The notes: generated from the sequence alone by a model not told the origin. 20,431 nt of DNA from a virus (IMGVR_UViG_3300032240_000912:1-20431), one strand, 5' to 3'. Shown: positions 2,657-20,431, counted from the stretch's first letter. Translations and numbers: made by a program.

Positions 2657-3988
2657 ATGTCGCTACGCATAAGAAGAGGAACAGACGCCCAAAGACAAAC
2701 CCTGACTTTTGATCAGGGCGAAGTTGTTTATACAACAGACACTAAAAAAGTATATGTAGGTGACGGCATTACAGCCGGCGGCCAAAATATTCTAGCTACT
2801 TCTGCGGGGACAGGGGTTACATTTAATCCTACTACACAACAGTTTGACTTTAATACAGTAGCGTTAGGTCTTACTACATCTGATGTTACAGAAGGTACTA
2901 GAAAGTACTTTACAACACAGCGAGCACAAGATGCCGCAGCCGCACTATTTACAAATGTAGGTAGTCCTACAACTACTGGAACTATTTCAGGCACTATTAC
3001 AACAGGTACAGTAACATTATCAGCTACACCTAGTCCACTATTAGAGCAAGGTGAAAAATTTAGTGTTATCGGTACAGGCGGCGGTGGACTTACTGCTGGT
3101 GGGACTTATTTTGTTGTTAGTAATACAGGATCGTCTGTAGTACTAGCTAATTCTTTAGTTAATGCTATGGCTGGCACAGCTATTACCAATTTAACCACTG
3201 CAAGTTTAACAGGAACTACATTCTCATCTGGGGGGACAGACACTGGAGTTACATTTGTCTATGATCCAATAACCCATACAATGGCTGTTACTTCAACTGG
3301 TGTAACAACTGTTTCAACAGATACAAACCCTAGTTTAGGCGGAAATCTAAGTTTAAATTCACGTAATATTACAGGAACGGGCAATATTAATATTACTGGT
3401 TCTGGAACGTTTAGTTCAACTCTAAGTGCTAGCGGAGCATTAACAGCACCAACTGCTACTTTTGCTACTAAACTAAATGTAGATAATATTAGTAGTATTA
3501 GTATTACAGGTGTTAATGTAAGCGCCGATGGTACTGCACCCTTAGTTGTTACAGGAATAGGAACTCTTGGCCCAACTAGCGGTCAAGTATATTTGACTAT
3601 TAATGCAGCCAAAGGAACGATTGCTTCCCCGACTGCATCTGCAGCCGGTGACTTATTGGGTGGTATTGTTATACAAGGATATGTTGGTGGCGCGGCTGTT
3701 TATAAAGCGGCTGGACTTGTAGCAGCCGGTTGGGACGCATCTGCAATAATGTCAGATACATATCCTAAATCAACACTATCATTAGTTGCATACGGTGGTG
3801 GATCAACTATCCGTATTGCTACTTTAGATAATCAAGGAGTTTTTACTGCACCTGTGTTTAAAGCGGCTAACTATGCTACTGGTTCATATCCAGCTAGCCC
3901 AGCGAAGGGTTGGATAATTTTTGACAGCACTACAAATAAATTTATGGGTTATAATGGAACATCCTGGGTAGCATTTACTGGACCTTAA
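2657..3988 (+). CDS. Tail-fibre/adhesin-type structural protein with Mtd_N-like N-terminus
   Basis: This 443-residue protein starts SLRIRRGTDAQRQTLTF and continues with GEVVYTTDTKKVYVGDG. This is the short beta-rich N-terminal module found on phage tail fibres and related adhesins (Mtd_N/hyaluronidase-like), which docks the fibre to the particle. The long middle is low in charge and rich in Thr, Ser, Gly and Asn with short beta-prone repeats, as in fibrous shafts. The last 60 residues (from about KAANYATGSYPASPAKGW) contain the FDSTTNKFMGYNGTSW pattern common at the ends of such fibres. No chaperone or lectin domain is identifiable. It is monocistronic, with a late promoter and a terminator, and should be assembled into the virion. 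It directly precedes the oxygenase island. Confidence 0.8.
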   Translation: MSLRIRRGTDAQRQTLTFDQGEVVYTTDTKKVYVGDGITAGGQNILATSAGTGVTFNPTTQQFDFNTVALGLTTSDVTEGTRKYFTTQRAQDAAAALFTNVGSPTTTGTISGTITTGTVTLSATPSPLLEQGEKFSVIGTGGGGLTAGGTYFVVSNTGSSVVLANSLVNAMAGTAITNLTTASLTGTTFSSGGTDTGVTFVYDPITHTMAVTSTGVTTVSTDTNPSLGGNLSLNSRNITGTGNINITGSGTFSSTLSASGALTAPTATFATKLNVDNISSISITGVNVSADGTAPLVVTGIGTLGPTSGQVYLTINAAKGTIASPTASAAGDLLGGIVIQGYVGGAAVYKAAGLVAAGWDASAIMSDTYPKSTLSLVAYGGGSTIRIATLDNQGVFTAPVFKAANYATGSYPASPAKGWIIFDSTTNKFMGYNGTSWVAFTGP

Positions 3989-6479: not shown

Positions 6480-6484
6480 GAATA

Positions 6485-6492
6485 TATTTATA
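6485..6492 (-). promoter_or_regulatory. T4-type late promoter (minus strand), leaderless arrangement
   Basis: On the minus strand this reads TATAAATA, a perfect match to the T4 late consensus, 5 bases before the ATG ending at 6479. The predicted +1 is the A of ATG. There is no ribosome binding site. It is back to back with the plus-strand element at 6506-6513. Confidence 0.82.
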
Positions 6493-6505
6493 GTCCAGTC
6501 TGTTC

Positions 6506-6513
6506 ACTAAATA
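6506..6513 (+). promoter_or_regulatory. Weak T4-type late promoter (plus strand)
   Basis: ACTAAATA matches 6 of 8 of TATAAATA. Six bases lie between it and ATG 6520, so the leader would be about one base. No ribosome binding site is present. It is divergent from the element at 6485-6492. Confidence 0.5.
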
Positions 6514-6519
6514 TGCATT

Positions 6520-7266
6520 ATGAGTAACAGCCAACTTTTTATAGATTTAGAAAAACATATAGACTTAACAGAATGGGACAATCTGAAACCTGAAATTAGC
6601 AGAGGTATAGCTACTGCTAAAGATCTTGCTTGGGATGGAATTCATTTTACTTATGGTGTAATTAGACCACATGCTCAAGGAATAATGATCAAACCATTGT
6701 GGGAAGTTGTGAAACAATGGAAGGCACTTCCCGAGGATGATCCTTTTAAAGTAGCAGGCAGCGGATTAAATCATAATCAGCTTACAGATTATTTAAAAAA
6801 TGCTTTTGGTGCTTATGATTTCTATCGTGTCTATCCTATTATTGAGGAAGGCAATATACTAGGGGAATGTTCAAAACATTTTCCTGGACTAGTAAACTGG
6901 ATGCGTGTAATCGAATCTAATGTATTTTCTAATTTATACCAAGTTAATTTGATAACTGTAGATTCCGGAGGTATTCCTTGGGAACATGCCGATCTTAATA
7001 GCCAAGATGCTCCAATTCCCGAGGCACCCGATCTAATAAAAGAGTTTATTCATATAAAAACAGATTGTGACAGACCATTTTATATCATTGATCCGGATAC
7101 CGAAGAACGTGTGTTTATGAATACCCGAGCTGCCTGGTGGAATGAAAATCTATGGCACGGTGGTCTTCCTATTCAAAGACCTACATATACTTTGAGAATA
7201 AATGGAACATTTACAGACGAATTTAGAACAAAGATAGGTGCAAAAAATATTAGGAAGCATATATGA
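6520..7266 (+). CDS. 2OG/Fe(II)-type oxygenase, paralogue of the 13562-14359 gene
   Basis: This 248-residue protein has GIPWEHADLN (H156, D158), then NTRAAWWNENLWHGG (H213) and YTLRINGTF (R226), an HxD...H...R triad. It aligns along its whole length with the product of 13562-14359: both share DNL-PEI near the N-terminus, a FGAYD/MGAYD block, the FP...V.W.....VF segment, EFIH, NTRAAWWN and RI.G.FTDEFR. This suggests duplication and divergence within the island. The family is phage-like and not assignable to a characterised enzyme from memory. It starts a two-gene plus operon; the next gene overlaps it by 4 bases. Confidence 0.68.
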   Translation: MSNSQLFIDLEKHIDLTEWDNLKPEISRGIATAKDLAWDGIHFTYGVIRPHAQGIMIKPLWEVVKQWKALPEDDPFKVAGSGLNHNQLTDYLKNAFGAYDFYRVYPIIEEGNILGECSKHFPGLVNWMRVIESNVFSNLYQVNLITVDSGGIPWEHADLNSQDAPIPEAPDLIKEFIHIKTDCDRPFYIIDPDTEERVFMNTRAAWWNENLWHGGLPIQRPTYTLRINGTFTDEFRTKIGAKNIRKHI

Positions 7267-8147
7267 TAAATTATACATTAGATAAAAATAAGTGGACTGT
7301 AATCATAGAAAATTTTGATATGACTACAGCGACTCAAGAAGATATAAATCAAATATCTAAATTGGTTGCAAAAAATACCCTAGTAGTTATTCGAAATCAA
7401 AATCTAAGTGTAAAAGACGAAGTAAGAATTTTAAAAATGTTTAAAGATGTACAAAAATTTGTTGTCTCGGAAGCCGACAATTATGTTAGCACATTAGCAG
7501 GTGCTATGGTAAAAGGTTCCGAAGATTTATTTTTACGAGTAAGTGGCAAGAAAGATGAAGAAGGCCGTGTAGGTATTGCTGCCTATGATTGTGAAATGAT
7601 ATGGCATTGTAATGAACCTGGGGTTAAAGATAGGAAACCAATAGTTTGGTTACATAGCGTTGAAGGTTCTAAAGGCTCTAGAACTAGCTATACTAATAAT
7701 AGCCTCTCATATAACGATCTACCTGAGAATCTAAAACAAGAATTAGAAAACTATCATCTTGAAATTTATCAAGGATTAGGTCTAGGTAAGGACGATTTAG
7801 AATCCGACTATGAGGAATTACTAAAAATGGGTGAGAACGGAATTGTCAAATATAATCCACCATTGATAAAGATCAATAAAGCCGGAAACAAAGGAATATA
7901 TTTCCCCATGTATCATGTTCATAAAATTAAAGAACTAGATGAACAGAGAAGCAAAGAGATAACAGATTTTTTACGTGAATTCGTAGTCCGAGAAGAATAT
8001 GTGTATCACCATGATTGGCAAGATGGTGATATTCTAATTGCTGATCAAGAAATTGGCATACACAAGCGATGGCCGTTTAATAAAATAACAGAAAGAACTT
8101 TACACAGAGCCTGTTTTGATTATCCTGATCAAGATTATACAAGTTAA
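7263..8147 (+). CDS. TauD/TfdA-family dioxygenase with altered metal motif
   Basis: This 294-residue protein has TauD-like features in order: LVVIRNQNLS (40-49), MIWHCNEPG (112-120), KPIVWLHSVEG then SRTSYTNN (strand and 2OG-contact Thr), and near the end DGDILIADQEIGIHKR (H267) followed by ERTLHRACF (R282). TauD/TfdA enzymes oxidise small molecules such as taurine, carnitine precursors or amino acid derivatives. The first metal motif reads H115-C-N117 where TauD has HxD, so a carboxylate ligand is replaced by Asn, or the site is displaced. The end overlaps the converging gene by 4 bases with interlocked stop codons. Confidence 0.78.
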   Translation: MINYTLDKNKWTVIIENFDMTTATQEDINQISKLVAKNTLVVIRNQNLSVKDEVRILKMFKDVQKFVVSEADNYVSTLAGAMVKGSEDLFLRVSGKKDEEGRVGIAAYDCEMIWHCNEPGVKDRKPIVWLHSVEGSKGSRTSYTNNSLSYNDLPENLKQELENYHLEIYQGLGLGKDDLESDYEELLKMGENGIVKYNPPLIKINKAGNKGIYFPMYHVHKIKELDEQRSKEITDFLREFVVREEYVYHHDWQDGDILIADQEIGIHKRWPFNKITERTLHRACFDYPDQDYTS

Positions 8148-8791
8148 GGCAATTCGTCTATAACGATATATTCGCCTGTGATGCCTTGTTTAGTAGCGGC
8201 ATCGTCTATTAATTTTTTCCACTCGTCAGTAGCATCGTGTCTAGCAATAATCATGTGCATACGATCCTCATTGCTGTTGTTAACTACTGAGTGGTGGTAG
8301 TATAAATTCATAGCATAAACTCCACCCTGCTCCATAATTAATTCTTCACCGTCACCCCATACCCATTTACATCCGGTAGGGTTATTTAAAGCAACGTTAA
8401 TATTTTCAATTAATTTTATACTAGAATCTTTATGCATAGAAATATTCCCGCCAGCTCGCAACAACATAAATCTTACTCTACCATACTTGTTTGACGGAAA
8501 TACTTCTTTAAGCCAACGAGTTGTTATAGGACATAGGTCTGCTATTTCTGTCCAGTACATATCGTTACTTGCATCTTTGCCTTTCTTGTAACCATAGTCA
8601 CTCCAATTCTCATGCTTATCCCATCCGAGTCCGTGTAGTGTTAGACTTTCCCATCCGTCGTGTCCATAGTCTCCGGACCGGTGGGGTGTGAATCTATCGA
8701 CAAGTGCAAATGCTTCTGCAAGCATTTCAGTGTAAGGCATGGGCACATCTAATTTTAAATAACGTCCTTCTGATTGAAAATATTCTTTCAT
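8144..8791 (-). CDS. Aspartyl/asparaginyl beta-hydroxylase-like 2OG oxygenase
   Basis: This 215-residue protein has the AspH-type core: RFMLLRAGGNISMHKDSS (H120, D122), INVALNNP, WGDGEE, then YAMNLYYHHSVVNNS followed by EDRMHMIIA (H166/H167, R177). In this family the HxD, second His and H-x-V-x-N-x-S...R pattern bind iron and 2OG; members hydroxylate Asp/Asn or Pro in peptides or free amino acids. It is the last gene of the minus operon that starts near 11482. ATG overlaps the preceding stop (TAATG), with GGAG a few bases upstream. A peptidyl or amino acid substrate is likely from the family, but unproved here. Confidence 0.78.
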   Translation of the reverse strand: MKEYFQSEGRYLKLDVPMPYTEMLAEAFALVDRFTPHRSGDYGHDGWESLTLHGLGWDKHENWSDYGYKKGKDASNDMYWTEIADLCPITTRWLKEVFPSNKYGRVRFMLLRAGGNISMHKDSSIKLIENINVALNNPTGCKWVWGDGEELIMEQGGVYAMNLYYHHSVVNNSNEDRMHMIIARHDATDEWKKLIDDAATKQGITGEYIVIDELP

Positions 8792-10236
8792 TATATTACT
8801 CCTAACGGCCTTCCGCTATTGTGTTGCCAATCTTCTTTATGCCACTCGGGTGTTTTCAATTCTTTTATATCTGTGTATACAAAGTTACTAGCTTTATCTA
8901 AATGCTGTTGTGTTTTAACTTTCCAAAACCCATCGGCCGCCCGTGATGTCAGCATAAGCGTTACATTAGGATCTTTCTGTTGTAATTTTTGGAATAGCAT
9001 ATTTTCACACGCAATTCGATATTTTAAACTTGTTGAAGCAATAAATGGAGAATGATTATACAGATCGCTTAAATTCAGTAGTGTATTTTTATTTTCTTCT
9101 AACCAATCAAAATTAAATGCCGCTGTGTAATCAATCAGAATATAATCATATGTTAGTTGCTTAACTTCATTCCACAAGGCGTCCCAGTTATCAATCGTGG
9201 TTAAAAACTTTTCCCATTGTTCTGCTATCTGTTGTTTATAGCTATTTGAGATATAAGGAGAATTATTAGGCAACATGGGTTTATTATCCCAATAAAAATC
9301 TGCATAATCTTTGCCGTCCCATTCTTCAACCATCTTCTTCATGAACATCAAACAGTTATGATTAATGTCTGTAAAAATTACTTTGGTATTTTTAGTGAAC
9401 CCGATAAGCTGAAGATTTTTAACCCAGTTAAATCCGATACCAACTGTAGCATATTGTTCTACCGCACCGTCAAAAGGCAATTCATGTCTTAACCCGTCAG
9501 AATTCCAACCAGCGAAAAAGTTCATTCCAAAAAAATGATTGTATTTTATTTCAGTTAGTGCTTTTAGGAAAACATGATCGTATTCATAGTATAGATATTT
9601 TTTACTTGCTCGGATTTGTTCTGGCAAGGTTAGTAATATCTTATCTTGTTCCAACCCTATATTCAATATATTCCAACCGTGCAACTTAACAGAATATGTT
9701 TTAAGTTCTGTTCCTTTTTTAATCCACGCAGGAATCTCTGGATCGTTATACAAATAATCTTCACTACGGATAGGAGCAACTTGTTGATATTCTACCCACT
9801 CCTCGTTACCTATAGCAGGACATCCAAGGTCTTTATATTCTGTTAGATTAACGATATAAAATTGTTGATGTAATTCAAAGCAGGCATTCTTTTTATAGTA
9901 GGAGTGATCTCCTCTATCAAGTATATGCCCTGCTACAAAAAACTTATCCTTACATAAATTTTCAATCGCAGGAAATAGTCTATCCGATAATCCTAAACTA
10001 GTTCCGGCCGCAATAATAACAGCATGACTGTATCCTTCTTCTGCGGCAGTTTGTAGCAACGCATCCTCGTCTTTACTAATAAGAATATCGTAGCCATACA
10101 TATCAAAACGATGTATTAGAAAATCAGTTAAGTTTATACATACTTCCCGAGCGTAACCGCTTTGGCAGTTGTCGATAATATCTAGGATGCAACAAACTAT
10201 TGGCTTTTTCTTTTCAGTTCTAAATTTTGTTACCAT
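8791..10236 (-). CDS. Two-part protein of unknown function with methyltransferase-like segment
   Basis: This 481-residue protein is not recognised with confidence. Residues 10-140 look alpha/beta, with KPIVCCILDIIDNCQSGYA, a strand AVIIAAGTSL and FFVAGHILDRGD, reminiscent of a nucleotide- or sugar-binding Rossmann-type domain. Residues 260-345 hold YATVGIGFNWVKNL, then KVIFTDINHNC and EWDGKDYADFYWD, which resembles the glycine-rich loop and acidic strand end of class I SAM methyltransferases. A glycosyltransferase plus methyltransferase fusion is possible but speculative. ATG lies inside the end of the upstream GNAT-like gene (ATGGTAA) with AAGGAA upstream, so it is translated from the same message. 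Confidence 0.55.
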   Translation of the reverse strand: MVTKFRTEKKKPIVCCILDIIDNCQSGYAREVCINLTDFLIHRFDMYGYDILISKDEDALLQTAAEEGYSHAVIIAAGTSLGLSDRLFPAIENLCKDKFFVAGHILDRGDHSYYKKNACFELHQQFYIVNLTEYKDLGCPAIGNEEWVEYQQVAPIRSEDYLYNDPEIPAWIKKGTELKTYSVKLHGWNILNIGLEQDKILLTLPEQIRASKKYLYYEYDHVFLKALTEIKYNHFFGMNFFAGWNSDGLRHELPFDGAVEQYATVGIGFNWVKNLQLIGFTKNTKVIFTDINHNCLMFMKKMVEEWDGKDYADFYWDNKPMLPNNSPYISNSYKQQIAEQWEKFLTTIDNWDALWNEVKQLTYDYILIDYTAAFNFDWLEENKNTLLNLSDLYNHSPFIASTSLKYRIACENMLFQKLQQKDPNVTLMLTSRAADGFWKVKTQQHLDKASNFVYTDIKELKTPEWHKEDWQHNSGRPLGVI

Positions 10237-10781
10237 CTCGGATTCCTTTCTAACTCTTCTAAAAATTTATTAGCATAGAGTTCCCATACAGTTTGTCGAG
10301 TACCTCTGTACTCTATCTCTTTGATACGTTTCATTTGGCCCGTTGCTTCCATAGCAGGACCAAATATGTTATGTACTAGACGTTGTGTTCCTACGCTGTT
10401 TTCATTACTAGTAATGTATAAGTTAGCCCACGGCGGAGTCCACTCTATACAAACGGGTATTAAAAACTGACTAGTAACATGCTGATGAGTAACTATTTGA
10501 TTTCTTGTACGAATACTAGGAATAGGTATATGGTCTGAGAATACACAAGTACGTGCGGCAATTCTAAAAGCATCTTCCCCCATTTCTGGAAAACTGTGTG
10601 CGGCAACACTACCTACTGCCTTACCATAATAGTATAGGATCCATACTGCCCATGACTTTTCTTTTGCTAGGCTATCTACTAGCATCTTTTGACTAGCATT
10701 GTTTTCAAACCCCTTGGCTTTAGCAGTAGCATAAAACTCTGTTAAATCTAGTTCAGGTGTCCAAGATTTTATTTCAAACAT
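10230..10781 (-). CDS. GNAT-like N-acetyltransferase
   Basis: This 183-residue protein has the outline of a GNAT fold: WAVWILYYYGKAVGSVAAHSF (strands 2-3, with GKAVG the typical turn), a long middle with FLIPVCIEW, then NLYITSNENSVGTQRLVHNIFG (strand 5, the N-E-N turn and helix). The usual Q/RxxGxG/A acetyl-CoA loop is not clear; GTQRLVH may stand in for it. GNAT enzymes acetylate amines. It overlaps the upstream gene by 13 bases and the downstream gene by 7. Assigned on general fold shape, so moderate confidence. Confidence 0.5.
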   Translation of the reverse strand: MFEIKSWTPELDLTEFYATAKAKGFENNASQKMLVDSLAKEKSWAVWILYYYGKAVGSVAAHSFPEMGEDAFRIAARTCVFSDHIPIPSIRTRNQIVTHQHVTSQFLIPVCIEWTPPWANLYITSNENSVGTQRLVHNIFGPAMEATGQMKRIKEIEYRGTRQTVWELYANKFLEELERNPRW

Positions 10782-11482
10782 TGTACACGCTCAATAAAAT
10801 CTGCTGGGTAGTTTGTACTAAAACTTGACCAACACAGTTGATCCATAACTTCCCATGGTTGCGGTTCATCCCATTTAATTCCCAAACTATCTAAGTGCTT
10901 ACGCATTTCTTTTTGTCTTGTTGTGTAGATATGGCTTTCCACATCTTTAATACTAATTGTACTTTCATTGTCGCGATATGTAAAGAAGTAATTGATACTT
11001 TTTAACTTGCCATCTACTACAAAATAACTGCTAGGATGCATACTATATTTGTGTAAGCCTAAACTCTTGTGTGCCTTAATAATGTTAATCATTTGGTATT
11101 GCCAATCTGGAACTACTTGATCGTAATTGGCCATATCACATCCTGCCTGCTCCCAAAAGTCTGGGCCGTCTATTTCCAAATACAATTTTCTATTATCTAA
11201 ATCTATATTCTTAATTGTTGGAACTAGCTCAGGATAAGCGTTACGCATCTGTGTTAGATAGTTTACTTCACGTAGCCATTTTTCTTCCATCTTGTCAGGA
11301 TCTACTACTTGATTTTGGCCTTTATGGTATTCAGTATCATTATAGTACCACTGACAGAATACTTTTTTATCCTCAGATATGAGGCTAGTATAAATTAGAT
11401 TGTTTCGGCAAAGACCTATGCCAGGTACGTTGTTGTAATAATATTCCATGGTATAGTAATTAGCTATAAATATTTGCCACAT
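10769..11482 (-). CDS. Unrecognised family, paralogue of the 17140-17835 gene
   Basis: This product of up to 237 residues shares a clear pattern with the product of 17140-17835: YYY...PG...NL.Y.., W..REV.FL, the DLDNRKLYLE / DLNNRKVFIE block, P DW..Q(M/I), and an HP/YPH-x(3)-F/Y-x-V/I...LK.I segment. The last two recall the catalytic loop and DFG region of kinase-like phosphotransferases (APH type), but the catalytic Asp is not conserved, so a degenerate kinase fold is only a guess. ATG at 11482 would overlap the divergent ATG at 11481 by two bases; ATG at 11449 is an alternative start. No clear minus-strand late promoter is seen. Confidence 0.6.
   Translation of the reverse strand: MWQIFIANYYTMEYYYNNVPGIGLCRNNLIYTSLISEDKKVFCQWYYNDTEYHKGQNQVVDPDKMEEKWLREVNYLTQMRNAYPELVPTIKNIDLDNRKLYLEIDGPDFWEQAGCDMANYDQVVPDWQYQMINIIKAHKSLGLHKYSMHPSSYFVVDGKLKSINYFFTYRDNESTISIKDVESHIYTTRQKEMRKHLDSLGIKWDEPQPWEVMDQLCWSSFSTNYPADFIERVQCLK
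11465..11472 (+). promoter_or_regulatory. T4-type late promoter for the radical SAM operon
   Basis: TATAAATA, a perfect consensus match, lies 8 bases before ATG 11481. The predicted leader is about 3 bases (CAC). No ribosome binding site is present. The element lies inside the divergent minus-strand gene if that gene starts at 11482. Confidence 0.82.
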
Positions 11483-12518
11483 GAATATTTTAGAAACTGT
11501 ATCCCTATGTAACCAATGCTATCGTCATATTTCAGCAGAACGATTCGAAAAGGACGGTAAGATGATGTTGGGCAAAACTTGTCCAAAACACGGTTACCAA
11601 GAAGTGATACTAGACATTAGTGCAGACTTTTATAAAAGTCAACAATACCAAAAACGTAGACCAAGTTCCTATTGGTTAGACATTACTAATCGATGTAATT
11701 TAGACTGTCCACATTGTTATCAAATGCCCGATAATAATAGCAAGGATCCTAGCATAGATTACTTACTATCAGAAGTTATGAGTTGGCCTGACAATGGATT
11801 GCCTGTTAGCTTAGTAGGAGCAGAACCTACAGTGCGTAAAGACCTAGCTGATTTAGTTTTGGCAATACACGCCTTGCCCACTAAGACTAGAAATGTTATA
11901 ATAGTTACCAATGGTGTGTATTTGGCTAAATGGGATTATGTAGAAAGGTTTAAAGGAATACCAAACTTAAAATGGACATTTGGACTTAACCATCCTGACT
12001 ACAACGGCGGACAAATACGAGACAAACAAATGATAGGTTTAGAAAACTGTCTTAAGTTAGGACTCGATGTAAAGACATTAACATACACATTGGCTAATTT
12101 AGAACAGCTAACTGATGTAATGCACGAAGTACAAAAGTTTGGCATCAATGCTAGGATACAATTAGGTGTTGAGATTGGTCGTGTACCAGAAGGTGAGTTT
12201 GTAGAACTTTACTTGTCAGAGCTAGTTACAGTTGCTAAACAGTTTTGTTTAGACAACGGCTGGACATGGGAGCCTGATTATCAGGGCGGCAATCGTACAC
12301 ACTTTGCTGTTCGTATAAATGGCATTGAACATAAGTTTATCAAATGGTGCGATGTTCGAACTATAGACTTAGAAGAAATACAAAGCGAGTCTTGGGCTAG
12401 TATTGTTCCAGGTAAGCCTATGAGTCCATTACTACATCAAGTTATATTAAGAGATCAAGCAGTTAACAAAGGACAGATGTTGTACGATACAGTACCTGAA
12501 AAATATAGACATGAATAA
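11481..12518 (+). CDS. Radical SAM enzyme with N-terminal Cys/His knuckle, copy 1
   Basis: This 345-residue protein has an N-terminal CNQC (C10, C13) and CPKHG (C34, H37) knuckle, then TNRCNLDCPHCYQ with the radical SAM cluster C72-x3-C76-x2-C79, and GAEPT (113-117) as the SAM-binding GGEP-like motif. The same N-terminal CxxC...CxxHG element precedes the radical SAM core in archaeal lipid and pterin-modifying enzymes (tetraether synthase and MJ0619-like groups), which form C-C bonds or methylate unactivated carbons. That points to demanding chemistry, but the substrate is unknown. It is followed by a closely related gene overlapping by 8 bases. It begins a five-gene plus operon. Confidence 0.85.
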   Translation: MNILETVSLCNQCYRHISAERFEKDGKMMLGKTCPKHGYQEVILDISADFYKSQQYQKRRPSSYWLDITNRCNLDCPHCYQMPDNNSKDPSIDYLLSEVMSWPDNGLPVSLVGAEPTVRKDLADLVLAIHALPTKTRNVIIVTNGVYLAKWDYVERFKGIPNLKWTFGLNHPDYNGGQIRDKQMIGLENCLKLGLDVKTLTYTLANLEQLTDVMHEVQKFGINARIQLGVEIGRVPEGEFVELYLSELVTVAKQFCLDNGWTWEPDYQGGNRTHFAVRINGIEHKFIKWCDVRTIDLEEIQSESWASIVPGKPMSPLLHQVILRDQAVNKGQMLYDTVPEKYRHE

Positions 12519-13575
12519 AATACACGATACAATATCCTTATGCGAACATTGCTATAGGCATGTACCTGCTGTTCTTTTCGAACAAGATGGGTCTGTATGG
12601 TTATCAAAAAAATGTAAGTGGCATGGTGAGAGTAAATACTTAGTAGAACCTAATGCTGATTTCTATATTAATTACAAATACAATAGACCAACTAATCATA
12701 CCTATTGCTTAGATATTACTAATCGTTGTAATTTAAATTGCCCACATTGTTATCAAATTCCAGATAATATGAGCAAGGATCCTAGTATAGAAAATATACT
12801 TGATATTATCCGTGCGTGGGACGATGACGGATATGCTGTTGCCTTAATGGGTGCAGAGCCAACTACTAGAAAAGATTTACCAGAGTTGTGCAGAGCTATT
12901 CAGGCACTGCCTGGCAAACCTAGAGCAATAATGATTTTAACAAACGGCGTTTATCTATCCGACCTAGATTATGCTAAACAGTTTGAAAACATGTCTAACT
13001 TGTTTTGGACTATTGGATTAAATCATCCCGACTACCAAGGGCATACAGTTAGAAAAAAACAAATGGAGGGTATTGATAATTGTATGAAGTTAGGTATGAC
13101 TATAAAAAATGTTAGTTACACTCTTGAGACTATAGATCAGTTAGAATATTGCTTAGAAGAAATACAGGAGTTCGGCCAGACGCTTAGTCCACACAACTAC
13201 AGAGTACGAGTAGGCACAGATATCGGTCGTCATCCGGGCGAAGAAAAAATATACTTGTCTGAGTTAGTAGACATGGTCAAAGCGATATGCGATAAGAAAG
13301 GGTGGACACACGAGTATGATCATAATTACGGAATTAGAGTTCACTATCCTTTGCGTATTAACGGCATACTAGTTAAGATTATACAATGGCCTGATGTACG
13401 CACTATTGACTTAGAAGAAGATCAAACAGAATCGTGGGCTGATATGTTACCCGGTAAGCCTGTAAGTCCATTAGTTCATCAGGTTATACTACGGGATGGT
13501 GCAGTAAATAAAAACTTACCACTATATGATACAGTACCTGAAAAGTATCAAAGGAAATATGATGCACGGGATTAA
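12511..13575 (+). CDS. Radical SAM enzyme with N-terminal Cys/His knuckle, copy 2
   Basis: This 354-residue protein is a tandem paralogue of copy 1: the C11-x2-C14 and C35-x2-H38 knuckle, DITNRCNLNCPHCYQIPDN with cluster ligands C73, C77 and C80, and MGAEPTTRKDL. Similarity is high across the whole length, including GLNHPDY and the C-terminal PGKP-SPL-HQVILRD-AVNK-LYDTVPEKY block. An extra 8-10 residues occur around SPHNYRVRVGTDIGRH. The two copies may act in sequence, on two positions, or as a heterodimer. The ATG lies inside the end of copy 1, so expression is coupled. Confidence 0.85.
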   Translation: MNKIHDTISLCEHCYRHVPAVLFEQDGSVWLSKKCKWHGESKYLVEPNADFYINYKYNRPTNHTYCLDITNRCNLNCPHCYQIPDNMSKDPSIENILDIIRAWDDDGYAVALMGAEPTTRKDLPELCRAIQALPGKPRAIMILTNGVYLSDLDYAKQFENMSNLFWTIGLNHPDYQGHTVRKKQMEGIDNCMKLGMTIKNVSYTLETIDQLEYCLEEIQEFGQTLSPHNYRVRVGTDIGRHPGEEKIYLSELVDMVKAICDKKGWTHEYDHNYGIRVHYPLRINGILVKIIQWPDVRTIDLEEDQTESWADMLPGKPVSPLVHQVILRDGAVNKNLPLYDTVPEKYQRKYDARD

Positions 13576-14359
13576 TGGTAAACCTTATTTTGATATGACA
13601 CCTTACTTGGATATGGACGGGTTCGATAACTTACAGCCTGAGATATTAACAGGATTCGCTCTAGCACGTGAGTATGCTAAAGAAGGCACATGGATGGTTC
13701 CTGGTTTTACCTTTGAGAAAATGAGTTATCAGCCGCACTGGAAACCCATATACAAGGCAATGGAAGAGTTCACGGCCTTACCCAACAGTCCGTTAAAACA
13801 GGCAGGACTAGCACTAATGCCAAAAGACTTTAAAAACTTCCAAGAGCGTAACAAGTTTACCCGTTTCCTAAAGATGGCTATGGGTGCCTACGATCCGTAC
13901 ATCTACTATTACTTGTGGGAAGAAGGTTCGTGGGATGATCGAACTGCTCCGCGCAAACTAACACCTGAAGCAGAATACTTCCCAGAAACAGTTAAATGGG
14001 TTGAAAGTCTAGTGGGCACAGTGTTTGAAGACATTGGCCGAGTTATCTTTTTCCATTGTGAAGCAGATGGTATCCCGTTTGAGCATAGAGATTTAGATGC
14101 TAAGAATGGCGTGAACGTTGTTAAGCCGCATCGCAATGAGTTTATACACGTTCGTCCTAATACTAAAAAAGCGTTTTACTTGTGGGATCCAGAAACTAAA
14201 AATAAAACATATCTTAACACACGAGCCGCATGGTGGAATGATGTAGACTGGCACGGTGGTGAACGTATCATGGAACAAAGTTACGGCCTACGAATCGATG
14301 GTAAGTTTACAGATGAGTTCCGTAAACAGTTAGGCGTAGATCATTTAGAGAGTTATTAA
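13562..14359 (+). CDS. 2OG/Fe(II)-type oxygenase, paralogue of the 6520-7266 gene
   Basis: Start chosen at ATG 13562, preceded by AAAGGAAAT; ATG 13559 is adjacent and possible, and an upstream TTG-type start is unlikely. The 265-residue protein has GIPFEHRDLD (H175, D177), then NTRAAWWNDVDWHGG (H231) and YGLRIDGKF (R244). It aligns end to end with the 6520-7266 product, sharing the AYD block, NTRAAWW and FTDEFR. The ATG lies inside the end of radical SAM copy 2, and the stop is one base before the next gene, placing it in the same operon as both radical SAM enzymes. Confidence 0.7.
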   Translation: MHGINGKPYFDMTPYLDMDGFDNLQPEILTGFALAREYAKEGTWMVPGFTFEKMSYQPHWKPIYKAMEEFTALPNSPLKQAGLALMPKDFKNFQERNKFTRFLKMAMGAYDPYIYYYLWEEGSWDDRTAPRKLTPEAEYFPETVKWVESLVGTVFEDIGRVIFFHCEADGIPFEHRDLDAKNGVNVVKPHRNEFIHVRPNTKKAFYLWDPETKNKTYLNTRAAWWNDVDWHGGERIMEQSYGLRIDGKFTDEFRKQLGVDHLESY

Positions 14360-14360
14360 A

Positions 14361-15053
14361 ATGAAAGATACTGATTTTTTTCTAAAATTAAATGTCCCTA
14401 ATTTTTCAGAAATGCAAAAAGAAGTCTTGGACTATTTAAAAAAACATCCTGATTTAATTATCGAAAATGGCGGAGAACAACACATACATGTTACTTTAGA
14501 TCAATTTCCGATAATTTCTTCAGTATTTTCTCCTCGTGCTAAAAATAAAATCAATGAAATCAGCATAGGTGTAGTTCCACCAATGCATTCAACACCAATA
14601 CATATAGACGGACTAAGAGAAGATCCTAATCACTTCTATAGAAATCAAATAGAACAAACAGCACGTAACCATCCCGATAGATCTTATGATGATATCGATT
14701 GGACAAAATTTCCATCTGCTAATCAATATGTGTTAATAATTCCAATCAGCAATTATGAAAATTCTATGAACTATTGGTACAATGTAACTGATAACGTAAA
14801 CAAGGAAATTTTCCATTACTATGAACGAGAACAGTTTCCTTATAAATGGTGGCTCAATTTTTATACAGATACAACTACTGCTATTCCTATAGAAAAAGTA
14901 ATAATCGATAGACCAACCTTTATAAGATCGGACATATATCATAATGTAACAAATAACGGAACAGAAAACAGGTTAGCACTAATTATAAGAATATTTGAAT
15001 ACAAAAGATATTCGTCTCTTGATCAAGTTTTTGACTACACTGGATTAGTATGA
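14361..15053 (+). CDS. Probable 2OG/Fe(II)-dependent oxygenase
   Basis: This 230-residue protein has PPMHSTPIHIDGL (H81, D83), then FIRSDIYHNVTN (H194) and ENRLALIIRIFEY (R204), a 2-His-1-carboxylate plus Arg layout in a beta-rich context with YVLIIPISNYENS between. The N-terminal 45 residues are helical. It follows the oxygenase at 13562 by one base and overlaps the next oxygenase by ATGA, so three oxygenases sit in a row behind two radical SAM genes. I cannot place it in a characterised subfamily. Confidence 0.62.
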   Translation: MKDTDFFLKLNVPNFSEMQKEVLDYLKKHPDLIIENGGEQHIHVTLDQFPIISSVFSPRAKNKINEISIGVVPPMHSTPIHIDGLREDPNHFYRNQIEQTARNHPDRSYDDIDWTKFPSANQYVLIIPISNYENSMNYWYNVTDNVNKEIFHYYEREQFPYKWWLNFYTDTTTAIPIEKVIIDRPTFIRSDIYHNVTNNGTENRLALIIRIFEYKRYSSLDQVFDYTGLV

Positions 15054-15574
15054 AATACATAGGTAATTTTAAGTCCTGGATAGATGAGCAGAAGATAATA
15101 GATCACCTTACCAAATGTCAAGGTGATAAGACTCCGGTGTGGCAACCTGATCGTTGGAAGGGTAATGCTATATTAGAAAAGTTTACAGAAATGGCTCGCC
15201 CGGGTTATTCTAATAATCAGTATTTCTTTCATCAAATGAATCCTAAATATAAAGAGATGCAGGACTTTAAATGGTCGTTACCAGAAGTTCCAGAACACAG
15301 AACAAATATCAATTGGTGGTTCGTTATGTTGTATCCTGGAGAATTTCAGGCCATGCATATAGATCCACAGCTAACAGAAGTCAGTAATCCTGTGCGTTAC
15401 ACAATGTTCTTACAGGATTGGGAACCGGGACATATATTTGTCTGGGACGATCAATATATTGCCAACTATAAGGCAGGTGATATGTATGAGTGGAGTGACC
15501 CTATGACTGTACATGGGCCTGCTAACATAGGTTATACTACAAGATACACATTACAAATTACTATGTACGATTAA
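15050..15574 (+). CDS. Probable 2OG/Fe(II)-dependent oxygenase
   Basis: This 174-residue protein has FVMLYPGEFQAMHIDPQ (H103, D105), GHIFVWDDQY, AGDMYEWSDPMTVHGPANIG (H155) and YTTRYTLQITMYD (R165). The spacing and the DP-TVHG-AN-G-T-R closing strand fit small oxygenases common in phages. It is the last gene of the plus operon from 11481 and its 3' end overlaps the converging radical SAM gene by 14 bases. The product of 16656-17147 is similar in size and layout and may be related. Confidence 0.68.
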   Translation: MKYIGNFKSWIDEQKIIDHLTKCQGDKTPVWQPDRWKGNAILEKFTEMARPGYSNNQYFFHQMNPKYKEMQDFKWSLPEVPEHRTNINWWFVMLYPGEFQAMHIDPQLTEVSNPVRYTMFLQDWEPGHIFVWDDQYIANYKAGDMYEWSDPMTVHGPANIGYTTRYTLQITMYD

Positions 15575-16655
15575 CTACTTGGTCGTGTATAGCCATATAT
15601 GGACTTTTGCTAGAACACATAATTGTACAAGGTGCTGATTTATTTTCTTCTCGTCTACGATGTAAATTAGTTAACCATGCTTCGCTTGAAGTGACTTGTT
15701 TAACGCCGTGCTTGATAGAATCAATACTATCAAATCCACCTAAGTCATTTACAAATTCCTCAACATTCTTTTTTGCTTCTTCTGCTATTAAGTTAACATC
15801 CGAAGGATCATATATTCCAAATTTCTTATATGTGTCAATATCGTAATTAACATACATAAATGCAGATATAATACAGCAAGGATATACGTGCCCAAATGCG
15901 TCAATAAAGATGCGTAACTCTTCTTCGGCAAAGCAGTTATAACTAAGTCCAGACCAAGATTTATAATCTTTTAAATCATGAAACTCTACAGGTCTTACAT
16001 CGCTGTTAGTTGGTTGTTCAATGTGATATGCTATCTTTCCCTGCCTATCTAGTACAGGAAACTCTTTAGCGAATCGTCTAGAATTTTTAATTGTAAATTT
16101 TTTGAATCCTAACTTTTCAGAAAGTTGTTTAGCTTCTTGTTCTTGATGTTCATTATGTTTAAATCTTATAAACATCCAATTGGCTGTGCCGCCAGCATTG
16201 ATAAATGCTTTGGCGTTTTCTATGATCTTATTGTAGTCTGTGTTTATTCGGTATAGTGCATGTGTATCACTCAACCCATCAATGGCGAAATTAATTTCAT
16301 GTTTCTCGGGTAATATCTTAACTAGTGTTTCCCAGTACTTAGGAGTTCTAGCACTACCATTTGTATGGATTATAATAGTGATGTTAGGAGTTGTTTTAGT
16401 TACATAATCGCACATTGCTGTGAAATCATTGTTAACAATATTTTCTCCATAGTTACCGCAGAAGTCTAATTGATGAAGTTGATTTAAAAATTCTGGAGTA
16501 AAGATCTTTTTAAAATTTTCTAAACTAAGATCAGATTCTATTACTCTGTCATTATCTATACCACCATGTATGTTTCTAGCACACATAGGACAAGCGGCTT
16601 GACATCTATTAGTAATTTCTAACTGAACTGTTTTAATCTTTTTGTATGTAAACAT
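15561..16655 (-). CDS. Radical SAM enzyme with SPASM-like C-terminus
   Basis: This 364-residue protein has a radical SAM cluster at the N-terminus (ITNRCQAACPMC: C18, C22, C25), then FCGNYGEN near the SAM site and an IHTNGS strand. The C-terminus has YNCFAEEELRIFIDAFGHVYPCC, then SAPCTIMC, giving five extra cysteines placed like the auxiliary Fe-S cluster ligands of SPASM/twitch enzymes. Such enzymes modify peptides (RiPP maturation), proteins or small molecules. No precursor peptide gene is visible. It is the last gene of the five-gene minus operon; ATG directly abuts the stop of the upstream gene (TAAATG). Confidence 0.82.
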   Translation of the reverse strand: MFTYKKIKTVQLEITNRCQAACPMCARNIHGGIDNDRVIESDLSLENFKKIFTPEFLNQLHQLDFCGNYGENIVNNDFTAMCDYVTKTTPNITIIIHTNGSARTPKYWETLVKILPEKHEINFAIDGLSDTHALYRINTDYNKIIENAKAFINAGGTANWMFIRFKHNEHQEQEAKQLSEKLGFKKFTIKNSRRFAKEFPVLDRQGKIAYHIEQPTNSDVRPVEFHDLKDYKSWSGLSYNCFAEEELRIFIDAFGHVYPCCIISAFMYVNYDIDTYKKFGIYDPSDVNLIAEEAKKNVEEFVNDLGGFDSIDSIKHGVKQVTSSEAWLTNLHRRREENKSAPCTIMCSSKSPYMAIHDQVVNRT

Positions 16656-17147
16656 TTAATATCCTATTAGGTGAAACATGTATTTTTTTGATAAGCTACC
16701 ATTAATACCGTTGTGCCATTCGCGATGGTTGTTCCATTCTAAAATAGTTCCTTGAGGTTTGTTATAGTGATATTCATGTCCTAGTACAAAAAGCTGTCCT
16801 ACACTAGGTTGGCTTATAAACACAGAGTATCGCTTCAGCTTGCCGTGTTTTAAATATTCTTTTTCATTATCATCTATGTCATAGTGATATCCCGTCATGT
16901 ATCCGGGCTCTACACAACTAATCCAACTGCGTAAAGGTATAATACCTAATTGTTCACTAAGGTCTTTTTCAATGTCCTTAGTATTGTAAAAGTTTGTCCA
17001 CTTAACACTGTCTGTATTAAAGTTACTGTCTTTCCACAGATCTAGCATTTGCTTGTACTCTGGGTTATTCATGTCCCATCGTGCAGGGTCAACAGTAACT
17101 ACTCGACCGTCAGTTAGATCATGTATTACAGAATTCCAATTAATCAT
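16656..17147 (-). CDS. Probable 2OG/Fe(II)-dependent oxygenase
   Basis: Start chosen at the ATG ending at 17147, which overlaps the upstream stop by 8 bases; a longer frame beginning at 17288 would run 140 bases into the previous gene. The 163-residue protein has GYMTGYHYDIDDNE (H88, D90), then EWNNHREWHNG (H145) and a closing strand SKKYMFHLIGY with Lys (K154/K155) where Arg is usual for binding 2-oxoglutarate; Lys is known in some members of the superfamily. RYSVFISQPSVGQLFVLG forms the middle strands. The substrate is unknown. Confidence 0.6.
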   Translation of the reverse strand: MINWNSVIHDLTDGRVVTVDPARWDMNNPEYKQMLDLWKDSNFNTDSVKWTNFYNTKDIEKDLSEQLGIIPLRSWISCVEPGYMTGYHYDIDDNEKEYLKHGKLKRYSVFISQPSVGQLFVLGHEYHYNKPQGTILEWNNHREWHNGINGSLSKKYMFHLIGY

Positions 17148-17835
17148 TTTTATACAACTCTTTAAAGACTTCTGAGAATATATTACTAGGCCATGCTTGA
17201 GATAGATGTCTTGTTGCTGTGATTTCAAAGAATTTCTTAAAATCAATATAACCATTAGCATCTGTTGATTCGTCAAATCGATAGGCACCGTGTTTACCTA
17301 TGACTCCTTCTATTATCTTTCTTTCTATAAATTGTTCTTCGTAAGGAACTACTGAATAATGATCTATGGTTTTTAAGGTTTGATCTTTTGAAATATAGAA
17401 ACAATGCGGATACAAAGCCATCTTCCAAAATTTGTTTTCTTTAGTTGAAACAAAGAAATCTTTAATTTGTTTTTCCCAGTCTGGTAATTCTTCATTTAGA
17501 TTCCTGCCAGGAGTAAACAGTATCTGAGACAGAGTTTCTTTATTCCACTCGATGAATACTTTCCTATTGTTAAGATCTACATCATAGACTTTAGGAGTTG
17601 TTTTTAAATGTGATAATCGATTTAAGAATTTAACTTCTCTATCAAAGAACCATTGTATCAGATCTTCGTCCGTTACTTCTTGTCCTTCTCTTCTATATGC
17701 AGGATCAATGCAGTAGTGCATACACATTACTGTTTGTTCAGGATTAATCTTAGGGCTATATAATAAGTTTGAACTATTAGCAGTTCCAGTAGGGGTTAAC
17801 TTATAATAATAGTTCCAAGAGCTGGTGTCTATCAT
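17140..17835 (-). CDS. Unrecognised family, paralogue of the 10769-11482 gene
   Basis: This 231-residue protein shares NYYYKLTPTG...SNLLYSP, FFDREVKFLNRL, VYDVDLNNRKVFIEW, LPDWEKQI and LYPHCFYISKDQTLKTIDHY with the 10769-11482 product. The last motif loosely recalls the catalytic loop and metal-binding strand of kinase-like phosphotransferases (H/Y-PH-F....LK.IDH), better preserved here than in the paralogue, with TIDH possibly the metal-site Asp. This remains a guess. The ATG overlaps the upstream stop (ATGA). One member of this family sits in each of the two long minus operons, always close to a radical SAM gene. Confidence 0.6.
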   Translation of the reverse strand: MIDTSSWNYYYKLTPTGTANSSNLLYSPKINPEQTVMCMHYCIDPAYRREGQEVTDEDLIQWFFDREVKFLNRLSHLKTTPKVYDVDLNNRKVFIEWNKETLSQILFTPGRNLNEELPDWEKQIKDFFVSTKENKFWKMALYPHCFYISKDQTLKTIDHYSVVPYEEQFIERKIIEGVIGKHGAYRFDESTDANGYIDFKKFFEITATRHLSQAWPSNIFSEVFKELYKND

Positions 17836-19373
17836 AGCTTACTCCAACTTAGTTTTTTATCAATATAGCTTTGCACCTGATCTCTAAATTTTTGATCTGA
17901 CGTATTAACCTCACTTATTTTGTAATCGTAAATTTCTTCATATGTATTTGTTTCATAATAAGCGAATAGTCGATCAGACAAGAAAGGATTACACCCTCTA
18001 AGTCCGTTAAATCCGTTAGCACCATAAAAATCTTTTACAAGAGCTTCTGCCTGATACCAATCCATGTCACTATGTTTCCATATAACAATATCGTTCCTAG
18101 TGCTGCCTACACCACCACCCCTAGGCGTAGTTGATTTAAAAATAACTGCGCCACTAGAGTCTTTACTTACTTCATATCCCGGATTCTGTCTTGCTTCTAA
18201 TTTAACTAACCCGTTAGTTACAAGTTCTTTAGTAAAGCGACTTTGATTAGTAAGTGTTTCGTCATAGTCAGGAACTTCTAAGATGTGTGCTGATGCACTC
18301 TGTCTTAGCCAATTTGTATTAAGCCATTCTAAACTGTTATTCCAAGACTCTACACTTTCGCCGGGTATACCACATATCATTTGTATGTTTGCTCTGTAAC
18401 GCTTAGGTGCATGCTTATCAGTATACTCTTGAAAATCTAATAGGCCTTCCTGCAACTTATCTGGATCCATACCTTTACGTACTAACTTACCTGCTTCGTG
18501 ATTAAATGTTTCAATGCCCATGCTGTGTCCAAGGAACCCTAATCTAATGTAAGTGTCCCAATGTTCGCGATGTTTAACAACCAAGTCTCCTCGAGCGAAT
18601 CCGCATATCCAAGGATTGTATCCTAGTTCATCTACTGCGTCTGCATACTTCTGTAATTTTTCTGTACGGTCATTAAATGTTTCATCCATGACACGCCAAT
18701 TTGTAATACCCCACTTTTCATAGCCTGTTTGCATTTGTAGTTTGAATTGGTCTTTGCTTACACTAACGTCTTTACTTTGTCCAAGCAAGGGAAAGTTACA
18801 GTAACTACAATTGAACATACAACCGCGGGCTGTTTCAATTTGAGGGCATTCCCAAGGCATCATAAAGTCACGTTCTTCGTAGTCTACTAGGTAACTATCT
18901 AACGGCGCACTAGGATAATGGTATAACCCTCTGATAACTTTTTTGCTAGGAATAGTGATGTCTGTTTTTAAAGTTGTACCCAATGTACCTATTAAATGTT
19001 TACATAGAGCAAGTATAGCATTTTCACCATAGCTGTCTACCCAATAGTCTACTCCCTCAGCAGGTGTAACCATTGCGTTGTTTCCACCGACTACTACAGG
19101 AATAGTTGGATACTCTTGTTTTAGCCAAGCAATAAACTCATTAAGGTAAGGACTCCACGGATTTAAAAATGCAGTGCCAAAACAAAACATAACAGTCTTG
19201 TCAGTTGTGCGTGAGCGTACAAGCCCTTGTAGTTCTGCTAATTGCCAAAAGGCAGTAAAGTCTACTACTTCTGCATCCCAATCATTCATTCGTAGAAATG
19301 TAGCCACCCGATGAGTCCACAGGATACGTTCCCAACGTTTGCCTGTTAGGCTAAAGAATAAAGCATGATTCAT
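17832..19373 (-). CDS. Radical SAM enzyme of the B12-binding-domain type
   Basis: This 513-residue protein has an alpha/beta N-terminal domain (1-130) with VVDFTAFW, TVMFCFGTAF and PVVVGGNNA, laid out like the cobalamin-binding domain of class B radical SAM enzymes. The core follows with QIETARGCMFNCSYCNFP (C185, C189, C192) and a TIM-barrel pattern with VMDETFND, CGFARGDLVV, MGIETF and MICGIPGES. The DxHxxG motif that contacts cobalamin is not visible, so it may bind B12 base-off or not at all. Known relatives methylate unactivated carbons or transfer sulphur. ATGA overlaps link it to the gene above and the gene below. Confidence 0.82.
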   Translation of the reverse strand: MNHALFFSLTGKRWERILWTHRVATFLRMNDWDAEVVDFTAFWQLAELQGLVRSRTTDKTVMFCFGTAFLNPWSPYLNEFIAWLKQEYPTIPVVVGGNNAMVTPAEGVDYWVDSYGENAILALCKHLIGTLGTTLKTDITIPSKKVIRGLYHYPSAPLDSYLVDYEERDFMMPWECPQIETARGCMFNCSYCNFPLLGQSKDVSVSKDQFKLQMQTGYEKWGITNWRVMDETFNDRTEKLQKYADAVDELGYNPWICGFARGDLVVKHREHWDTYIRLGFLGHSMGIETFNHEAGKLVRKGMDPDKLQEGLLDFQEYTDKHAPKRYRANIQMICGIPGESVESWNNSLEWLNTNWLRQSASAHILEVPDYDETLTNQSRFTKELVTNGLVKLEARQNPGYEVSKDSSGAVIFKSTTPRGGGVGSTRNDIVIWKHSDMDWYQAEALVKDFYGANGFNGLRGCNPFLSDRLFAYYETNTYEEIYDYKISEVNTSDQKFRDQVQSYIDKKLSWSKL

Positions 19374-20035
19374 AAGATCTTAAACTCGTCAGGCAATATG
19401 TGTTTTAATGAATCTAATTTAGATTTTTCTATATTAAACTTTACACCTATTGATGAAAGAGAAAAGTTGTTTATAAAACCTAGCTTGTTAGCTTCGTTGA
19501 ACCAAGGACTCAGTGTGTTATCAAACACAAACCTAGCATCGTCTGGGTTTGCTATAGTTGTAGATAATGCAACTGCTATAGGTTCTGTCAAAGTATTCTT
19601 TTTTAACAAGTGTCTAACAACTAGTTGTACTCTAGCACGACGGCCAAAATTAGCGGCAGTATGCAAAAAACTAGCATCCATATTATACCATATACCGTCT
19701 TGTTCTAATTTGTGCATTTGCTTGCGTATTAGATCAATCAAATAACATTCTTCTCCTAAGATGTTAAGATGATATCGGTCATCAATATCGGCATGGATTT
19801 GATAGCATTGATTAGGATCTAAAATAATTATCCTAGCCTCGCCTTTGGTCACAGGCAAAGAATTGTAAAGTGTTTCCCAAACAGTGCCTTTATACTCGTT
19901 TTTTATAATCCAGGGGTTGTAAAAGAAATCGCCCGTTGGTTCATTGATGGTTGTTTTCATTCCACTTTTGGGTAATGAGTAACATGCCTCTTGAAATAAT
20001 TTTGGATCTACTGTATAATTGGTGTTAGCTAGCAT
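19370..20035 (-). CDS. 2OG/Fe(II) oxygenase, Asp/Asn hydroxylase-like
   Basis: Start chosen at the ATG ending at 20035, 4 bases after a CATAAATA late element on the minus strand; a longer TTG-started frame would span that promoter. The 221-residue protein has CYQIHADIDDRYHLNIL (H81, D83), then MDASFLHTAANFGRR (H125) and ARVQLVVRHL (R132-R135). The D-x-FLHTAAN-G-R-R pattern is close to the AspH-type closing motif. The C-terminal 75 residues are extra to the core. It leads the five-gene minus operon containing two radical SAM enzymes. Confidence 0.7.
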   Translation of the reverse strand: MLANTNYTVDPKLFQEACYSLPKSGMKTTINEPTGDFFYNPWIIKNEYKGTVWETLYNSLPVTKGEARIIILDPNQCYQIHADIDDRYHLNILGEECYLIDLIRKQMHKLEQDGIWYNMDASFLHTAANFGRRARVQLVVRHLLKKNTLTEPIAVALSTTIANPDDARFVFDNTLSPWFNEANKLGFINNFSLSSIGVKFNIEKSKLDSLKHILPDEFKIL

Positions 20036-20039
20036 GAAA

Positions 20040-20047
20040 TATTTATG
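20040..20047 (-). promoter_or_regulatory. T4-type late promoter (minus strand)
   Basis: On the minus strand this reads CATAAATA, 7 of 8 of TATAAATA, followed by TTTC and the ATG ending at 20035. The predicted start falls on or next to the first base of the ATG. No ribosome binding site is present. Confidence 0.68.
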
Positions 20048-20062
20048 TGCTACTATAATGAG

Positions 20063-20070
20063 GTTAAATA
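20063..20070 (+). promoter_or_regulatory. Weak T4-type late promoter (plus strand)
   Basis: GTTAAATA, 6 of 8 of TATAAATA, is followed by TTTC and ATG 20075, mirroring the minus-strand element. GAGG at 20060-20063 lies too far upstream (11 bases) to serve as a normal ribosome binding site. Confidence 0.5.
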
Positions 20071-20074
20071 TTTC

Positions 20075-20431
20075 ATGCAAATACCCTTTGATAACACTTG
20101 GAAAAATATAGCGATTGGACTAAGCGGCGGCGCAGATAGTGCGTTACTAGCATATCTACTATGTGAACAAACAACTACCCAATCAGTACATATCATCTCG
20201 CATAAGCGTATGTGGAAAACTAGACCATGGCAAAGCTATGATAGCCTAACTGTATACACATGGTTGTTAAAACGATTTCCAAACATTAAATTTTCTCGCC
20301 ATACAAATTTTATTGCGCCCGATATAGAATACGGAAACATGGGTCCTAACTTAACTGACGAGTACGGGAAAAAAGTTAGTGGCGATAATATACAGCAACG
20401 GTCGTTTGCCGAGTATGTATGCTTTAATGAA
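20075..20431 (+). CDS. PP-loop ATP pyrophosphatase-like protein, 3' truncated by window
   Basis: 119 residues are visible; the gene runs off the window. IAIGLSGGADSALLAYLL (residues 12-29) contains the PP-loop SGGxDS, which binds the pyrophosphate of ATP in N-type ATP pyrophosphatases such as QueC, asparagine synthase, tRNA thiolation enzymes and GMP synthase. These activate a carbonyl or carboxyl group by adenylation, then aminate or thiolate it. HIISHKRMWKTRPWQSYDS and a later helix follow, not matching QueC in detail. It suggests that the island continues with an amide-forming or nucleoside-modifying step. The subfamily cannot be told from this fragment. Confidence 0.75.
   Translation, partial: MQIPFDNTWKNIAIGLSGGADSALLAYLLCEQTTTQSVHIISHKRMWKTRPWQSYDSLTVYTWLLKRFPNIKFSRHTNFIAPDIEYGNMGPNLTDEYGKKVSGDNIQQRSFAEYVCFNE

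Follow-up and report, generated by a model that had tools for sequence, protein, structure and literature searches.

The virus record analyzed here (20,431 bases, referred to as the window) encodes two proteins, A and B, that belong to a family of radical SAM enzymes with an N-terminal metal knuckle. In phages this family is real, conserved, and unreported; no description of its phage members was found in the literature searched, which was largely without subscription journals. B is the core enzyme of a cassette that is conserved across T4-superfamily phage relatives, and A, a paralogue with a single origin, is optional. The best explanation, to which we assign a probability of roughly 0.4, is that the cassette containing B carries out a radical modification of a glycan or small molecule.

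The reading frames of A and B lie on the same strand (+) and overlap by 8 bases, and the proteins are 54% identical from end to end (E = 3e-138), which bears out the initial annotation of a tandem, overlapping pair. Both genes also retain the knuckle and cysteine cluster noted there. In A, the motifs are C10-x2-C13-x20-C34-x2-H37 and C72-x3-C76-x2-C79, and the pattern in B is identical. The profile PF23545 ('HMPTM N-terminal zinc ribbon') scores 49.6 bits for A and 50.8 for B against a Pfam cut-off of 27, and PF04055 (Radical_SAM) is above its cut-off in both (E = 4.7e-13 and 4.6e-14, respectively). With the CX3CX2C motif and a partial TIM barrel, A and B are members of the radical SAM superfamily.

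Relatives were collected in three scans of IMG/VR that gave more than 100 loci; in the third, 186 sequences matched and the best 80 were kept. CX2CX20CX2H and CX3CX2C occur with exact spacing in each of the 100 distinct full-length viral relatives found, a degree of conservation far above chance, and GAE[PA] is present in 99 of them. Only six cysteine columns are invariant in this set, all in the knuckle or the radical SAM cluster; SPASM or twitch cysteines are absent from A and B, with no invariant cysteine past C79. Comparison with orthologues yielded dN/dS values of 0.04–0.08 for each of the two genes, so both are under purifying selection. The possibility that A is a decaying duplicate was ruled out (dN/dS 0.05–0.07).

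Two long relatives (186 and 201 kb) encode a T4-type Gp23 major capsid protein. In the one relative searched (L142), the capsid protein is ∼70% identical to those of jumbo T4-superfamily phages (e.g., Sinorhizobium phage Phosso and Cronobacter phage GAP32). The window is a fragment that has no capsid gene, so its placement in the T4 superfamily rests on the gene order it has in common with the long relatives. Among 50,697 GenBank phages, A and B each had one weak partial match, on unannotated contigs from faecal samples, and genes 12, 14, 17, 19, and 22 had none. Sequenced bacteria offered no close source of A or B, the best matches being ∼29% identical over partial length.

The cassette was defined in a well-covered set of 48 non-redundant loci, those in which 6 kb or more flank B on both sides (Table 1).

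Table 1. Features of the window. Fractions give occurrence among the 48 well-covered loci, all of which contain B.
Feature	Coordinates	Strand	Evidence or detail
Fibre-like gene with Mtd_N domain, upstream of cassette	2657..3988	+	domain match
Gene 10, TauD-type oxygenase, co-occurs with A	7263..8147	+	domain match
Gene 11, predicted 2-oxoglutarate oxygenase	8144..8791	-	motif alignment
Gene 12, GT-A-like (residues ∼9–232) plus class I methyltransferase-like (∼232–451)	8791..10236	-	42/48 loci
Gene 13, weakly GNAT/FeeM-like acyltransferase	10230..10781	-	48/48 loci
Gene 14, matches a protein-kinase-like fold by profile; motif of the catalytic loop apparently degenerate	10769..11482	-	44/48 loci
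Gene A, knuckle radical SAM protein, accessory paralogue	11481..12518	+	345 aa
Rubredoxin-like knuckle of A, C10 to H37 (CX2CX20CX2H)	11508..11591	+	translation, PF23545, published ligand motif
Radical SAM CX3CX2C cluster of A (C72, C76, C79)	11694..11717	+	invariant alignment columns
Gene B, knuckle radical SAM protein, core cassette member	12511..13575	+	354 aa
Gene 17, predicted 2-oxoglutarate/Fe(II) oxygenase (H187xD189...H243...R256)	13526..14359	+	48/48 loci
Gene 18, predicted 2-oxoglutarate/Fe(II) oxygenase, accessory	14361..15053	+	motif alignment
Gene 19, predicted 2-oxoglutarate/Fe(II) oxygenase (H103xD105...H155)	15050..15574	+	48/48 loci
Gene 20, fourth radical SAM protein, accessory	15561..16655	-	Pfam, NCBIfam
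Gene 21, kinase-like paralogue of gene 14	17140..17835	-	48/48 loci
Gene 22, B12-binding-like radical SAM protein, accessory	17832..19373	-	Pfam, NCBIfam
Gene 23, Asp/Arg-hydroxylase-like 2-oxoglutarate oxygenase	19370..20080	-	46/48 loci

In alignments, genes 7, 11, 17/9, 18, 19, and 23 show an H-x-D...H facial triad, in most cases followed by an arginine further downstream, and an oxygenase motif was read by eye in the ORF at 16656–17288. Together with the TauD-type gene 10, these bring the predicted 2-oxoglutarate oxygenases of the window to about nine, alongside four radical SAM enzymes. In the ∼15 kb from 4680 to 20080, enzymes that depend on oxygen and enzymes sensitive to it are thus unusually dense. 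Judged by comparison with relatives, the true start of gene 17 is probably ∼35 bases downstream of the annotated one. The TauD gene (gene 10) occurs in 23 of 24 loci with A and in 11 of 24 without it (p = 0.0003, kinship ignored).

Genes 14 and 21 matched protein kinases in a PDB sequence profile search, a signal confined to these two, as the profiles of genes 12, 13, and 17 returned nothing useful. One relative has a 399-residue ORF (L142:11988–13184) in which a gene-21 kinase-like region is joined to a small 2-oxoglutarate oxygenase like that of the window ORF at 16656–17288, which suggests that the two work together. The best fold matches of the GT-A-like domain of gene 12 include a PBCV-1 capsid glycosyltransferase (Z = 11.3). 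However, these Z scores are not high and are almost equalled by those of many nucleotidyltransferases, and an invariant DXD-type motif was not seen among the conserved columns of the family alignment, so that glycosyl transfer by gene 12 is doubtful.

Other genes were noted in the window and in some relatives. A 215-residue AMP-binding enzyme (window 4055–4702) matches the middle of PF00501, and some relatives have longer ORFs that look like AMP-ligases (e.g., 485 residues at L001:3436–4890). A gene resembling PP-loop ATP pyrophosphatases (LSGGADSALL) starts at 20045 and runs off the contig end at 20431. Downstream in relatives are an ORF that is PLP-enzyme-like by eye and has no Pfam match (L018:6373–7227), a PP-loop protein weakly like QueC (L028:12823–13533), and a twitch-type radical SAM protein (L018:7740–9176).

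Bacterial PF23545 proteins resemble A and B in having the knuckle and a radical SAM domain and in occurring as several tandem copies, including in Omnitrophota. One Omnitrophota sample has five knuckle radical SAM genes within 15 kb (G153:C14:85911–100636), and other Omnitrophota genomes have two adjacent copies. These bacterial proteins are nevertheless longer than A and B (∼430–530 residues), and many have a second CX3CX2C. A quick tree of the radical SAM domain, with long branches and with MJ0619 included as a fragment only, placed the phage proteins in one clade (support 99) and the bacterial and archaeal knuckle proteins in a separate group of moderate support (83).

The nearest bacterial relatives in the same tree are proteins from Roseibium, Labrenzia, and an acidobacterium (support 96), three of a set of four (L074, L075, L078, and L087) that also comprises a gammaproteobacterial protein. 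Unlike A and B, all four are knuckle-less, although towards the C terminus they have a Trp-Pro/Trp-Gln motif like that of the phage proteins. Ahead of the radical SAM gene in Roseibium and Labrenzia lie genes for a GNAT protein and an Asp/Arg-hydroxylase-like 2-oxoglutarate oxygenase (L074:6129–8199 and L075:5948–8051); this oxygenase is recognized by the profile of phage gene 11. The Roseibium operon is followed by a gene for a giant 2604-residue RTX protein; the Labrenzia locus has an Imm11-like gene and, after it, a large ORF. The presence of this trio in both phages and bacteria suggests a common chemical module, though loci of this type are rare (2/87, 1/297, and 1/369 closely related genomes), and we regard the operon as a lead only.

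Two viral systems offer further comparisons. PBCV-1 A064R combines a glycosyltransferase and a methyltransferase in virion glycan synthesis (PMC9614988), and gene 12 likewise pairs a GT-A-like with a methyltransferase-like domain. The similarity is limited by a low Z score and ∼6% identity, by the lack of an invariant DXD in gene 12, and by a further transferase domain in A064R. Pelagimyophages, which are T4-like aquatic phages, are reported to carry radical SAM cassettes in the tail-fibre region, within hypervariable host-recognition regions (PMC7029224), and may offer a parallel; in GenBank phages, A and B have a weak partial match at most.

The GT-A-like and methyltransferase-like, acyltransferase-like, and kinase-like proteins of the cassette make a glycan or small-molecule target somewhat likelier than a protein, although no sugar-nucleotide enzyme was recognized within the window. 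The RTX and fibre neighbors argue in the other direction: a tail fibre or other adhesin might be hydroxylated by the oxygenases, phosphorylated, or acylated, with A and B altering a side chain or an alpha-carbon. We consider a protein target unlikely, but several observations favor it. A gene with an Mtd_N domain lies upstream of the cassette, and the related bacterial operon precedes the RTX gene. The peptide maturases SkfB and YydG/EpeE are secondary sequence matches, SuiB comes third when the fold matches are ranked by entry type, and the profiles of genes 14 and 21 point to protein kinases. However, A and B do not have the SPASM or twitch cysteines, and the kinase-like proteins have no evident catalytic aspartate in the loop when read by eye. 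A RiPP precursor inside the cassette was excluded, since genes 11 to 19 overlap or abut and leave no room for one.

The relationship between A and B bears on whether they form an obligate heterodimer of one catalytic and one regulatory subunit; heterodimeric chemistry had been suggested in the initial annotation. Gene overlap and the tandem order, which is kept in 27 of 63 non-redundant loci, are in keeping with such a complex. Nevertheless, 25 of the 63 have B without A although the upstream DNA is visible, and in a few loci A and B are a few kb apart with other genes between them. Every catalytic motif is also kept in A. In five loci, a third paralogue (C) accompanies the pair, and in at least some of these A and B are apart. 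In the well-covered set, A is found in about half of the loci (24/48 or 23/48, at slightly different identity thresholds), which makes an obligate heterodimer improbable. Some assignments near the identity threshold are approximate (in L065, A adjoins B where the tree label has none), but the conclusion that B is core and A optional is independent of them.

In a full-length tree of the phage family, A forms a single clade (support 100), and the test does not reject one clade for B as well (p-AU = 0.79). Most simply, the two arose from one duplication, and A was later lost or exchanged several times. Only 10 columns separate A from B at high conservation, and their substrates may therefore be similar. 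The two-step chemistry suggested in the initial annotation, or chemistry split between substrates, is possible.

NCBIfam models and fold comparison were used to place A and B among known enzymes. The best-scoring models were Tes (NF045702; 71.4 bits for A and 81.1 for B) and TrsS (NF045646; 73.6 and 79.6), far below the cut-offs of 450 (an equivalog threshold) and 490, respectively. The NrdG2 activase model (TIGR02495) gave 18.3 and 24.1 bits against a cut-off of 131, and QueE was absent from the 25 best NCBIfam matches listed. A model of A was built with AlphaFold2 on a 31-sequence alignment (pLDDT 90.6). GDGT-MAS was its top Foldseek match, and a second structural alignment with GDGT-MAS (7tol) covered both knuckle and barrel (Z = 29.6 over 326 residues). 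MoaA was the runner-up (Z = 17.9), and past these top two, the PDB matches reflect ordinary radical SAM similarity. In a PDB sequence search with B, GDGT-MAS was the sole match at E < 0.01. These scores and the fold ranking, in which QueE is far lower (Z = 13.3), rule out a QueE or anaerobic activase identity; the 7-carboxy-7-deazaguanine or activase kinship that would have undercut the initial annotation was thus not found. Synthesis of a modified nucleotide, either a viperin-like chain terminator or a hypermodified DNA base, is quite improbable. Viperin is among the fold matches (Z ∼14.8), and the QueC-like protein of some relatives would fit, but the viperin NCBIfam model scores only 26–28 bits against a cut-off of 180, and no hydroxymethylase or thymidine-modification genes were recognized within the window.

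GDGT-MAS/Tes (MJ0619 of M. jannaschii; PDB 7TOL and 7TOM) has a rubredoxin-like iron site with the ligands C9X2C12X20C33X2H36 (PMC9433317). The identical ligand spacing, the radical SAM barrel, and the whole-length fold similarity uphold the assignment of the phage knuckle to the tetraether synthase type. The enzymes differ in important respects. GDGT-MAS is ∼500 residues long, compared with 345 for A, and has two auxiliary [4Fe-4S] clusters, one N-terminal and one C-terminal; the C-terminal one holds the carbon intermediate during the coupling reaction (PMC9433317). A and B are viral, have undergone an optional duplication, and have neither cluster; a profile alignment shows that the N-terminal CX2C-type insert of 7tol is missing from the phage proteins. 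The phage family has the GDGT-MAS architecture but, with no conserved cysteines for auxiliary clusters and scores far below the model cut-off, does not qualify as Tes. The carbon-holding cluster is among those absent, so tetraether-type coupling by A and B is unlikely, and the proposal that they join unactivated carbons loses its footing. Methylation of such carbons fares no better as a suggestion: MJ0619 was at one time reported to be a pterin methylase, but the authors of its structure were unable to corroborate that activity (PMC9433317). A tetraether-synthase-type role in joining or altering lipid chains is thus highly improbable: despite the shared architecture and best fold match, the published mechanism uses a cluster-bound carbon, and the Tes scores are far too low.

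For the radical modification of a glycan or small molecule, we propose the following scheme. A and B are compact enzymes with the knuckle-plus-barrel architecture of GDGT-MAS minus the auxiliary clusters; their motifs, fold, orthology, purifying selection, and cassette membership are established here, and the steps that follow are inferred. The [4Fe-4S] cluster would cleave SAM to give a 5'-deoxyadenosyl radical. The N-terminal iron or zinc knuckle may be structural or may pass electrons, and conserved C-terminal residues (H274, W289, E299, H319, R324, D325, and N329) would bind a polar substrate at the site that the C-terminal cluster occupies in GDGT-MAS. By analogy with other enzymes free of auxiliary clusters, the likeliest outcome would be hydrogen abstraction followed by a redox-neutral step (epimerization, dehydration, deamination, or rearrangement) rather than carbon–carbon coupling, because there is no auxiliary cluster to accept an electron or hold an intermediate. 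This reaction type is deduced from the cluster absence and not from the active site. B would provide the core step of a phage pathway that includes the GT-A/methyltransferase, GNAT-like, and kinase-like proteins and the 2-oxoglutarate oxygenases, and A, derived from one duplication, would perform a related optional step or the same step at another position. Most plausibly, the pathway would decorate a glycan, or a molecule linked to sugar, close to host recognition; the Mtd_N fibre gene, the A064R parallel, and the GNAT and oxygenase neighbors of the bacterial relatives speak for this reading. A more ambitious reading, which we offer tentatively and consider somewhat doubtful, is that a phage branch of the tetraether-synthase architecture, having shed its auxiliary clusters, builds a previously unknown virion or host-surface modification together with about nine 2-oxoglutarate oxygenases and the kinase-like proteins, by a type of pathway not known in cells.

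With the A/B family, the knuckle radical SAM architecture familiar from tetraether lipid synthase gains a viral form free of auxiliary clusters, which provides a natural test of the role of the knuckle when clusters are absent. In uncultured T4-superfamily phages, a pathway of several oxidative and radical enzymes is kept with strong conservation, and cultured phages in GenBank offer no close relatives of it. The product of the cassette, if found, could show a new phage route to altering surfaces or small molecules.
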